A stretch of DNA of 33,329 bases. Origin: Pseudomonadota bacterium. GTDB taxonomy: Bacteria; Desulfobacterota; Syntrophorhabdia; Syntrophorhabdales; Syntrophorhabdaceae. The stretch's first letter is position 1, and each line of letters begins with the position of its first letter. Below the pieces are notes generated by a model. That model made no database searches and was not told the DNA's origin. It worked only from the letters and a program-made list of their open reading frames with translations. Positions 11,537 to 14,864 of the stretch are shown here, piece after piece. The DNA lies in contig JAPLKA010000083.1 in assembly GCA_026388315.1 (NCBI GenBank), positions 1 to 33,329 of the forward strand. Reading direction: 5' to 3'. Position numbers and translations under genes: made by a program.

Positions 11537-12340
11537 TTGAAAAAGACCGTAGTTATTATCATCGCTGGCATAATTCTTATATTATCTTTTCTTGTTTTTA
11601 CAAATATTCCATTATTTTTTAAGGGCTACTCAAAAGTTAAAACCAGCGTCGGTGAAGTAACGGGCCCTACCCTGAAACTCATGAGCAAACCCACACAACT
11701 CGTACGATACATGCTTGACTCATACATAAATTTAGTTGGGGTCAAGAAAGAAAACTTCGAGCTAAAAAAAAAGCTTGATACCCTCCAAGTAGAAAATCAG
11801 AAGATAGCAGAATTAGATAAAGAAAACAAAAGATTAAAAGCAATTTTACAACTTACGGAGCAACACCCCAACACCATGATAGCTGCGAGAGTTATTGGCG
11901 AAGATGTAAAAAACTGGTTTAAATGCATCATTATCGATAAAGGAAGAGATCACGGCATAAGAGAAAAGATGCCTGTTGTTACGCCAAAAGGTGTAGTAGG
12001 CCAGGTAGTGGAAATAAACAAGTGGCACTCGAAGGTAATGATAATAAATGATACCAACTCTTCGGTAGATGTTTACATAGAAGGTAAAAACACAAGGGGT
12101 GTACTCGAAGGGACAGGACAGACTACGCTCAAATTAAAATATATACCGAAAAATGATGAAATCGCTATTGGTGATAAATTAATCACATCAGGCAAAGACA
12201 GCATCTACCCCAGGGGTCTTCCAACAGGCATAATCATCACAATAAACAGGAACAAAGCCGGGATTTTTGCTGATGTAGATGTGATGCCTTTTAACAACTA
12301 TAAAAGATTAGATGAAGTTCTCATAGTAAAGAAAAAATGA
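11537..12340 (+). CDS. mreC: Rod shape-determining protein MreC
   Basis: A 267-residue bitopic protein with a single N-terminal transmembrane helix (about 4-24), a coiled-coil stretch rich in K, E and L (about 58-100) and a beta-rich periplasmic domain. That domain contains ARVIGEDVKNWFKCIIIDKGRDHGI and VTPKGVVGQVVEI, the conserved MreC core. It links MreB to PBP2 and the rest of the elongasome. The start is a TTG 13 bases after the mreB stop, with a modest GTGGG upstream. The 3' end overlaps mreD by four bases (ATGA). Confidence 0.93.
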   Translation: MKKTVVIIIAGIILILSFLVFTNIPLFFKGYSKVKTSVGEVTGPTLKLMSKPTQLVRYMLDSYINLVGVKKENFELKKKLDTLQVENQKIAELDKENKRLKAILQLTEQHPNTMIAARVIGEDVKNWFKCIIIDKGRDHGIREKMPVVTPKGVVGQVVEINKWHSKVMIINDTNSSVDVYIEGKNTRGVLEGTGQTTLKLKYIPKNDEIAIGDKLITSGKDSIYPRGLPTGIIITINRNKAGIFADVDVMPFNNYKRLDEVLIVKKK

Positions 12341-12828
12341 AAATAGCTTCATATATTCTGATCAGTATAATCTTCATAATTTTTGAATCAGCTATTCTTT
12401 CCATTTTCCCCGTTGAATTTTTTAAACCTGACGTGGGGATACCCTTTATCATATACATAACCCTCTTTTTAGGGCCGGGGACTGGTTTTTTGACAACATT
12501 AATCATTGGCCTGTTCCAGGAAATTCTCTCTAATGCACCTCCCGGCTCAATGATTTTTACAAAAATTTCTATTTTTCTCCTTGTAACTTTTTTGAAAGGG
12601 AAACTATATATTGACTCAAAATACAGTTTCTCATATATATGCGGTGGATCCGTGGTGGTTGAATCATTTCTTTTTCTTGTTTTGTCGCTCCTTTCCAAGG
12701 GCGAATTGAAGAATGTTATGAATGTGTTTTTCTATATCATTCCAAATGCCATATTTACCGGCTTTATATCTATTTTCATCTTTTCAATGATAGAATATAT
12801 AAATATGAGGTTCTTGAGCAGAGAATAG
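12337..12828 (+). CDS. mreD: Rod shape-determining protein MreD
   Basis: A 163-residue hydrophobic protein with five to six transmembrane segments, the usual size and character of MreD, which completes the MreBCD scaffold in the inner membrane. The sequence is weakly conserved in this family. The call rests on hydropathy, the FFKPDVGIPFIIYITLFLGPGTGF region and the position between mreC (ATGA overlap, coupled translation) and mrdA. The stop at 12826-12828 is immediately followed by a hairpin-rich block. Confidence 0.85.
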   Translation: MKIASYILISIIFIIFESAILSIFPVEFFKPDVGIPFIIYITLFLGPGTGFLTTLIIGLFQEILSNAPPGSMIFTKISIFLLVTFLKGKLYIDSKYSFSYICGGSVVVESFLFLVLSLLSKGELKNVMNVFFYIIPNAIFTGFISIFIFSMIEYINMRFLSRE

Positions 12829-13015
12829 ATTTCCACGGGCAAGTCCGTGTTACTATAGATACGTATGCTTCGCGTGAAAAACGGAAGCATTCACCCACGC
12901 CTGAAGACGTGGTCCTTTGCTGGCTTGTGCCATTCGTGGGAATCCACTCTGCGAGCATAAGCAAGCATGAGGGGAAAGCTCCGCGGGCTTTGCACGTGGA
13001 GGGGGCGACGCAAGC
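12829..13015 (+). repeat. Hairpin-rich repeat-like element between mreD and mrdA
   Basis: This G+C-richer block has three consecutive short stems: CACGG/CCGTG (12834-12838 with 12845-12849), ATGCTTC/GAAGCAT (12865-12871 with 12884-12890) and CCACG/CGTGG around CCTGAAGA (12895-12899 with 12908-12912). The last resembles the terminal hairpins of IS200/IS605-type elements, but no transposase or TnpB remains. The mrdA frame happens to be open through it, so gene finders will extend mrdA into it. Confidence 0.45.
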
Positions 13016-13027
13016 TCCTATAATAGA

Positions 13028-13043
13028 AAGGGACAAAAAACTG
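13028..13043 (+). promoter_or_regulatory. Ribosome-binding site pointing to a CTG start for mrdA
   Basis: AAGGGA at 13028-13033 is followed seven bases later by an in-frame CTG at 13041. The string GGGACAAAAAA here is nearly identical to the leader just before the mreB ATG (GGGACAAAAAATG), suggesting the same leader type with CTG in place of ATG. No ATG, GTG or TTG lies between here and the first transmembrane helix. Confidence 0.5.
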
Positions 13044-14864
13044 GACAATTTTACTAAAGAAGATAAATCAGCAATTAACAGCAAGTATAAATGGTGCAGG
13101 CGATTACTCGTATTTACGGTAATCATACTCTGCATCAGGCTCTGGGATCTTCAAATCATGAAGGGAAATGAGATGCGAAAACTCTCGGAGCAAAATCGCA
13201 TAAGGGTTAAAAAGGTCATAGCTCCAAGGGGGATCATGTATGACAAAAATGGAAAGATTTTAGCTGATACAAGACCTTCCTTTAACATGTATGTAACCCC
13301 TGAAGACATAAAGGACTTTAATCAGACAATCGATGGGCTTGCAAAGCTGCTTGATCTCGACCGTGAAGAGATAATAAACAAATTGAAAGCGGCAAGCGGA
13401 TTTCCCCCCTCATTTCCTGTGAAAATCAAACCTGATATTTCTATGGACGAGGTGGCAAAAGTAGAGGCAAACCGGGTGTATCTTCCCGGTGTGAGCATCC
13501 AGATTGAACCAAAAAGGAACTATCCCTACGGCAAAATGATGGCCCACATGCTTGGTTATGTTTCAGAGATTAGCGATGAAGAAATAAAAGCAAAGGAATT
13601 CAAAAGTTATTCTCTTGGTGATTTTATCGGCAGATATGGGCTTGAAAGAGCATATGAATCACAACTACGTGGGGTAGACGGTGAAAAAAGGGTCGAAGTT
13701 GATGCCATGGGGAGAGAGGTAAGAACCCTCGAAATTAAAGACTCCACTCCAGGGAACAGTTTATATTTAAATATTAACCTTGAGATACAAACAGCCGTTG
13801 AAAAGGCCTATGATGGTAAAAAGGGTGGTTGTATTGCTGTTGAACCAAAGACCGGCGCTGTAGTTGCCCTTTTAAGTCGACCGGCCTTTGATCCGAACAA
13901 ATTTGCCGGTGGAATTTCAAAAGAAGACTGGAAGGCAATTATTACGGACAAAACGCATCCCCTTCAAAACAGGGTGACACAGGGCAGATATCCTCCCGGA
14001 TCAACCTTTAAAATAGTCTCAGCATTAAAGGCACTGGATGAAGGGATTATTAATGAGAGGACAAGTTTCACCTGCCGTGGCGGATTTCCATTCGGTAAAA
14101 GGGTATTCAAGTGCTGGAAAAAGGGAGGTCATGGGACTGTTGCGGTGCATCGAGGTATCGTTGAGTCCTGTGACATCTTTTTTTATAATGTCGGGTTGAA
14201 GCTTGGCGTCGACAGAATACACGAGATGGCTGATGCAATCGGTCTTGGAAAGACAACGGGCATTGATTTGCCCGGCGAGAAGAACGGTCTTGTGCCTTCC
14301 TCTGAATGGAAGAAAAAGACATACGGTGAACAATGGTATGAGGGTGAAACCGTATCCGTTTCAATTGGTCAGGGCGCTGTCTGGCTCACCCCGGTACAAC
14401 TTCTTCAATTATCTGCTTTCGTTGCCAATGATGGTGTCACATTTAAACCGCAGATAGTAAACAGGATAGTTTCACCAGAGGGGAAAACCTTAAAAACCTT
14501 TGAGCCGGTTATGAATTCTAATGCAAAACTCAAAAAGGAAACAGTAAGGATTGTGAAAGAAGGGATGTGGGGTGTTGTTAACGAACCCAGTGGCACAGCT
14601 CATGGCTCGCGCCTTCAAACCGTCAGCATGAGCGGTAAAACGGGTACTGCACAATCTGTTGGAGAAAAAGGGAAAAACCTGGGTGACCATGCCTGGTTCA
14701 TTGCCTATGCACCAGCAGAGGAACCTGCCATTGCCATATCGGTACTCGTCGAGTATGGTGGCCATGGCGCCAGCATTGCAGCCCCCATAGCAAAATTAAT
14801 TACAGAAAATCTTTACAAACCAAAGGTTGAAATAAAAGAGGCAAGAGCTTATGAAAATAGATAA
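13041..14864 (+). CDS. mrdA: Penicillin-binding protein 2 (elongasome transpeptidase)
   Basis: A class B transpeptidase that crosslinks peptidoglycan during side-wall elongation with RodA. From the CTG start it has 607 residues, the normal size. One transmembrane helix lies at about 19-37 (RRLLVFTVIILCIRLWDLQ), then the dimerisation domain with RIRVKKVIAPRGIMYDKNG, then the catalytic domain. Catalytic motifs are S321-T-F-K324, S376-C-D and K533-T-G (SGKTGTAQS). The frame is open back to a GTG at 12909 (651 residues), but the extra 44 residues are encoded by the hairpin-rich block and lack a ribosome-binding site. I therefore prefer the CTG at 13041, which has one. The 3' end overlaps rodA by 14 bases. 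Confidence 0.9.
   Translation: MDNFTKEDKSAINSKYKWCRRLLVFTVIILCIRLWDLQIMKGNEMRKLSEQNRIRVKKVIAPRGIMYDKNGKILADTRPSFNMYVTPEDIKDFNQTIDGLAKLLDLDREEIINKLKAASGFPPSFPVKIKPDISMDEVAKVEANRVYLPGVSIQIEPKRNYPYGKMMAHMLGYVSEISDEEIKAKEFKSYSLGDFIGRYGLERAYESQLRGVDGEKRVEVDAMGREVRTLEIKDSTPGNSLYLNINLEIQTAVEKAYDGKKGGCIAVEPKTGAVVALLSRPAFDPNKFAGGISKEDWKAIITDKTHPLQNRVTQGRYPPGSTFKIVSALKALDEGIINERTSFTCRGGFPFGKRVFKCWKKGGHGTVAVHRGIVESCDIFFYNVGLKLGVDRIHEMADAIGLGKTTGIDLPGEKNGLVPSSEWKKKTYGEQWYEGETVSVSIGQGAVWLTPVQLLQLSAFVANDGVTFKPQIVNRIVSPEGKTLKTFEPVMNSNAKLKKETVRIVKEGMWGVVNEPSGTAHGSRLQTVSMSGKTGTAQSVGEKGKNLGDHAWFIAYAPAEEPAIAISVLVEYGGHGASIAAPIAKLITENLYKPKVEIKEARAYENR

Follow-up and report, generated by a model that had tools for sequence, protein, structure and literature searches.

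The mreD–mrdA junction and the open frame upstream of mrdA

The window, by which we mean the whole analysed stretch of 33,329 nucleotides, contains the genes mreB, mreC, mreD, mrdA and rodA, all of them running in one direction. mreD occupies positions 12337–12828 of the forward strand (163 amino acids, PF04093 with 1.6e-05) and terminates with a TAG stop codon at 12826–12828. The neighboring mreC (11537–12340) has a non-ATG start too, namely TTG, and is preceded by AAGTGGG and no strong Shine–Dalgarno sequence.

For mrdA, which encodes PBP2, our mechanical ORF finder began the frame at a GTG at position 12909. The sequence-only reading had proposed that the first 44 residues of this frame are a false extension caused by a repeat-like block and that a CTG at 13041 might be the real start. 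Its coordinates and residue counts hold on re-reading the sequence: the frame is open upstream of CTG 13041 for 44 codons, giving 651 residues from the GTG and 607 from the CTG (13041–14864, forward strand). The putative false extension (12909–13040, same strand) consists wholly of repeat and leader sequence. We found no Shine–Dalgarno sequence before GTG 12909, which sits in the 3′ arm of a predicted hairpin (12895–12899 pairing with 12908–12912), and a Pfam search with the 44 residues matched no family, in agreement with the expectation of an extension devoid of homology and of a ribosome-binding site. In the open frame of the window, GTG or TTG codons lie at codon positions −43, −37, −34, −16 and −14 relative to the CTG, and none of these five has a Shine–Dalgarno sequence. 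Such a sequence, AAAGGGA, is found at 13027–13033 of the forward strand directly 3′ of the repeat; its last six bases, AAGGGA (13028–13033), are followed by a 7-base spacer and the CTG. As had been noticed, this leader resembles that of mreB, with which it has the stretch AAGGGACAAAAA in common. The PBP2 equivalog model TIGR03423 matches the CTG-started protein with 705 bits, the match beginning at residue 17.

An open frame of 651 amino acids could also mean that the repeat is now part of the protein in this species, with translation starting at GTG 12909 or at one of the inner GTG or TTG codons, and for bacterial MITEs such in-frame fusion with genes is on record (PMC2229807). We consider such an extended PBP2 quite improbable given the five in-frame codons devoid of a Shine–Dalgarno sequence, the location of GTG 12909 in a hairpin arm, the extension without a Pfam match and the ancestral CTG, which together with its Shine–Dalgarno sequence is untouched.

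An inserted block between mreD and mrdA

The region from 12829 to 13026 (forward strand) is a composite repeat, consisting of a module Z followed by a module Y, and measures 198 bp when the TAG on its left is assigned to the target. It is GC-rich and, as the sequence-only reading had remarked, rich in hairpins; its predicted fold is more stable than that of shuffled sequences both as RNA (z = −3.47, 0 of 200 shuffles being as stable) and as DNA (z = −2.81, 2 of 200). Rfam holds no family matching the block and returned one chance snoRNA match (E 0.23) outside of it.

Comparison with the sister species G002, whose PBP2 is 95% identical to that of the window and whose mrdA gene is 93.8% identical at the DNA level, revealed an empty site reading GAGAGTAG|AAAGGGATAAAAACTG, the corresponding ends of the block in the window being TAG|ATTTCC ... 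CTATAATAG|AAAGGG. The block is absent at mrdA in G002, where no trace of it is left, and likewise in G001 (PBP2 85% identical). When 57 mrdA loci were scanned with the repeat profiles (30 and 27 loci from two sets, with some genomes counted twice and the two G014 loci cut before the junction), the window's own locus gave the only match. Judged by these comparisons, the block is an insertion between the stop codon of mreD and the Shine–Dalgarno sequence of mrdA, and by landing exactly there it would have broken neither gene. The reverse history, in which an ancestral element of the junction was lost from all relatives, has in its favor that losses occur, as the remnant-like CCTCCGTAATAG at site L006 in G002 indicates; with all other junctions seen lacking the block and with G002 traceless we regard it as very improbable.

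A search with the block gave 46 matches at E ≤ 1 in its own genome, the window copy included, so that the suspicion of a repeat and the expectation of further copies were both well founded; matches were also present in 30 of 60 relatives. A repeat search confined to the mreD–mrdA region was negative, since the other copies are located outside it. The block is a mobile-looking element of about 200 bases that separates two genes for cell shape in an uncultured bacterium.

The start codon of mrdA in relatives

The junction was readable in 43 of the 44 genomes of the order that we examined, that of G014 being cut by a contig end. In G002 it reads GAGAGTAG AAAGGGATAAAAA CTG: the TAG of mreD stands directly before AAAGGG, the CTG follows 13 bases after this stop, and within the sequence TAA AAA CTG an in-frame TAA lies two codons before the CTG. 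The first 30 mrdA codons of G002 include no ATG, GTG or TTG. G001, with the junction TATTAG AAAGGGTAACAAA CTG, has its CTG at the same place as the window; upstream of it the frame is open for 13 codons without ATG, GTG or TTG, and the next TTG is codon 22, within the membrane anchor segment. AAAGGG and the distance of about seven bases to the CTG are kept in both relatives, and in both the conserved start of the protein aligns with the CTG and no usable ATG, GTG or TTG is present. Eight genomes have TTG at the aligned start codon (G003, G004, G005, G013, G015, G016, G021 and G025), G021 having an additional TTG two codons upstream. Residues 2–8 after the start are similar in all 11 genomes with CTG or TTG (e.g., LDNFTKED, LENFIKED, LENFVKDD).

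Translation of mrdA therefore most likely starts at CTG 13041, and the 44 residues counted from GTG 12909 are most likely repeat DNA read by chance. Since the CTG is found in G002 and G001 together with empty sites, the CTG start most likely predates the insertion. The sequence-only reading had left the choice between a CTG start and an in-frame fusion of the element; the CTG with a stop just upstream in G002 speaks for the former and disfavors the latter. A conserved N-terminal extension in relatives without the block, which that reading had named as counter-evidence, was looked for in the junction comparison and not seen. One might also ask whether position 13041 was wrongly assembled or sequenced as C, hiding a true TTG or ATG start, as the TTG at the aligned codon of eight relatives might suggest, but the same C occurs in three separate assemblies of different origin with 85–95% protein identity, and an error is very improbable.

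A protein tree of 44 rows, including 14 short ones, unites the three CTG rows in a single branch (SH-aLRT 100), which lies in a group of 11 rows that have either CTG or TTG (support 86). The start-codon labels, all taken together, require 4 changes on this tree vs 12.4 in shuffles, where ATG is a label assigned by default to rows without CTG, TTG or GTG. The genus is represented by three genomes only. The simplest history is probably a single change from UUG to CUG in the ancestor of the genus. In the accessible part of the respective source, such a switch is given for 1 of 2,468 reconstructed ancestral UUG starts (PMC5622118), and CUG is put at 0.024% of bacterial starts in the available portion of another (PMC11497404). 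The putative mrdA start resembles known bacterial CUG starts in being an in-frame CTG at a conserved gene start with a Shine–Dalgarno sequence at normal spacing; it differs from them in being kept across three species of a genus and in belonging to a core cell-shape gene. That three species keep a CUG start would be a rare situation, yet one of a known kind.

We also looked for relaxed decoding as an explanation of the CUG start. The anticodon stem–loop GGGCTCATAACCC of the initiator tRNA is present in G000 and G002, a match was not found in the G001 assembly (86% complete), and IF3 is present in all six genomes searched. Both components look ordinary, and relaxed decoding therefore does not explain the CUG start. 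The accessibility of the region from the Shine–Dalgarno sequence to the CTG differs little between the window (0.64 unpaired) and G002 (0.56).

In G002 AAAGGG and the CTG follow closely on the mreD stop, and in this genus mrdA might be translated mainly by ribosomes finishing mreD. If the CUG worked only through such coupling or re-initiation, the insertion, which sets stop and CTG 212 bases apart in the window, would have uncoupled the two genes and lowered the amount of PBP2. We hold this to be possible yet doubtful, as a Shine–Dalgarno sequence is present in all three species; it is compatible with our preferred explanation rather than opposed to it. In either case the species of the window would have lost the close coupling of mreD and mrdA.

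Our preferred explanation, which we consider very probable, is that a structured intergenic repeat of the Syntrophorhabdales, composed of Z and Y, inserted recently at the mreD–mrdA junction, exactly between the stop codon and the Shine–Dalgarno sequence. The inserted repeat would have left the mrdA frame open by chance, and the ORF finder would stretch PBP2 to GTG 12909 as a consequence. mrdA would be translated from CTG 13041, a start that probably replaced an older UUG once, before the three species split and before the insertion. Initiation at this CUG would presumably be inefficient. mrdA is normally essential in rods. That it should begin with a very poor start codon, CUG initiation having 0.86% of the efficiency of AUG according to the part of the source at hand (PMC11497404), is odd and counts against our explanation.

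Architecture of the repeat

Module Z (12826–12946, forward strand; defined by alignment, nhmmer 8e-31) is about 120 bp long, starts with the palindrome TAGATTTCCACGGGCAAGTCCGTG (12826–12849) and is bounded by TAGATTCCC and GGGAATCTA, the latter being the consensus of the inner inverted end, which reads GGGAATCCA in the window (12938–12946). The first three bases of the consensus TAGATTCCC coincide with the mreD stop codon TAG at 12826–12828. The ATTCCC...GGGAAT palindrome of Z resembles the Neisseria dRS3 repeat.

Module Y (12947–13026, forward strand; alignment, consensus fold and nhmmer 2e-17) has a length of about 82 bp and three hairpins. Hairpin 1 is followed by the purine-rich stretch GAGGGGAAAG, hairpin 2 (about 12979–13001), the conserved core GAGGGGGCGACGCAAGC, which contains hairpin 3 (13002–13018), and the end TATAATAG. 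In the consensus fold of 44 aligned copies, 7 of 19 pairs have changed on both sides with pairing kept. On the reverse strand of Y the sequence CGTC is invariant (44 of 44 copies) and lies in the loop of hairpin 3. A short ATG frame within the Y of the window was discarded as a candidate, not being kept in copies that read GAGAGGGG.

The two modules are also found separately. In at least nine genomes there are full-length copies, whose alignment runs from TAGATTCCC to GTAATAG; its ends are sharp, and the DNA beyond them is unrelated. An inverted pair of the TAGATTCCC/GGGAATCTA type is not present at the ends of the whole element and belongs to module Z alone. TAG stands at both ends; the AATAG at the 3′ end is mostly repeat sequence, and a 3-base duplication is indistinguishable from the element. 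In the aligned copies, A and G are about equally frequent immediately before TAG.

Distribution of the repeat and other sites

We counted 47 occurrences of the Y core pattern GAGGGGGCGACGYRAGCCCC in this genome, and of 46 genomes from the order 30 contain it. The pattern read backwards gave no match. In a phylum sample of 395 genomes the core was found in 12, and outside the Syntrophorhabdales in 1 of 378 sampled genomes. The repeat family belongs to the order Syntrophorhabdales, to which it is nearly limited in our sample. The sole match outside the order is a single copy (G074:C9:55887-55906), for which lateral transfer or chance is possible.

We joined the flanks of five copies and searched with them for another empty site. 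The L015 site is empty in G005 and G016. The L006 site is empty in G002, yet the CCTCCGTAATAG mentioned above is kept there and looks like the remnant of a lost copy, so that insertion and loss are indistinguishable at this site. At the orthologous site L281/L299 a Y copy is common to G002 and G000, and the copy of G000 is without the middle part (hairpin 2), which suggests decay of Y by internal deletion. Y also occupies the same place directly before a gene's Shine–Dalgarno sequence in two genera (L263:1222-1452 in G005 and L304:1212-1442 in G000); Y and the gene are conserved between the two whereas the upstream DNA is not. From its translation we take this gene to be that of a V-type ATPase subunit A.

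Mechanical ORFs of this genome start inside or before a Y repeat at L006:1473-2414 and L011:1527-3011 as well, and the start annotation is therefore probably wrong at several repeat sites.

Placement of module Y

Where Y lies between co-directional genes it is on the gene strand in 41 cases and on the opposite strand in 4. This count comes from 110 clusters, of which 21 within ORFs and 13 at the edge of a contig or locus were left out and 16 divergent and 15 convergent ones set aside. After merging of sites with similar 3′ flanks to 104 (19 inside an ORF and 13 at an edge left out) the numbers are 38 vs 4 (p = 5.7e-8). By genome the counts are 22:2 in G000, 8:0 in G005, 5:0 in G016 and 5:1 in G002. 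In 27 of 114 Y copies the 3′ end is followed after 0–5 bases by a Shine–Dalgarno sequence with a start codon, vs 2.3% of random positions; at the other end of Y, read outward, this holds for 2 of 111. Both tests were devised after viewing the copies, and the genes in them are mechanical ORFs of at least 100 amino acids. The Y of the window obeys the rule, lying on the sense strand between two co-directional genes and ending at AAAGGGA. Given the pairs changed on both sides with pairing kept and the non-random placement, it seems that selection acts on module Y, either as RNA or as folded DNA.

That Y lies so close to Shine–Dalgarno sequences may in part be due to short gaps within operons; the strand bias is not accounted for in this way. 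One reading of this bias is that the CCTCC runs of a reverse Y could mask the Shine–Dalgarno sequence that follows. Going further, Y could be a mobile cis-acting RNA element of translation that inserts in sense orientation into operons and docks with its 3′ end on the next Shine–Dalgarno sequence. Its purine-rich stretch between covarying hairpins would then be a stand-by or re-initiation site for ribosomes, and CCTCC pairing would make reverse copies rare. We regard this as rather unlikely. If it were so, Y would support the weak CUG start at mrdA. The repeat may in any case have some effect on expression.

Comparison with known repeat families

The repeat resembles MITEs such as ERIC, Correia/NEMIS and YPAL in being structured, intergenic, non-coding, about 200 bp long and located between genes of the same direction, and in having TA at its ends (TAG...AATAG) and empty as well as filled sites (PMC2229807, available part). 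Like these it is a short non-coding repeat with many copies and defined ends. Unlike them, it is built from two modules also found apart, has no target-site duplication separable from its ends, abuts Shine–Dalgarno sequences with its 3′ end and is nearly confined to one order in our sample. How ERIC is oriented within an operon is described there as crucial for its effects on the mRNA (PMC2229807); our repeat may work like a bacterial MITE of this type.

With REP elements, as far as the available part of PMC3733652 describes them, it shares its palindromic, multi-copy and extragenic nature, and with CGTC REPs an invariant CGTC (here on the reverse strand of Y) and the absence of a linked transposase. 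REPs, however, measure 20–40 bp and are said to lie mostly downstream of genes, whereas our repeat spans 82–200 bp with several hairpins and lies directly upstream of genes. Membership in the GTAG super-family was rejected, ATAG and GTAG being mixed, and so was membership in the CGTC REPs, which carry an unpaired CGTC at one end of an 8–9 bp stem, the CGTC of Y lying in the loop of hairpin 3 (PMC3733652, same part).

Transposase linkage was analyzed for the Y1 and IS110 families. Z or Y occurred within about 1.5 kb of only 1 of 37 Y1 (IS200/IS605) loci, in this case a Y, and beside 0 of 3 IS110 loci. A RAYT flanked by the repeat was not found, and G005, with 17 repeat matches, and G037, with 15, gave no PF01797 match. 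A Y1/RAYT transposase as the driver was therefore rejected for lack of linkage. Text searches of an open-access library listed no description of the repeat family. Within the MITE/REP kind it represents an apparently new family, and its placement is unusual.

Implications

If our reading of the junction is correct, mrdA would be a clean natural example of a core cell-shape gene in which CUG has become the fixed start codon of a genus. Annotation limited to ATG, GTG and TTG would miscall this gene: too long here owing to the repeat, and too short or missed in the sister species. The same analysis has brought to light a repeat family that extends across the order, has covarying hairpins and is strongly biased in its placement with respect to strand and Shine–Dalgarno sequences. 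Other start annotations in the order are probably corrupted by it, e.g., those at L006 and L011.
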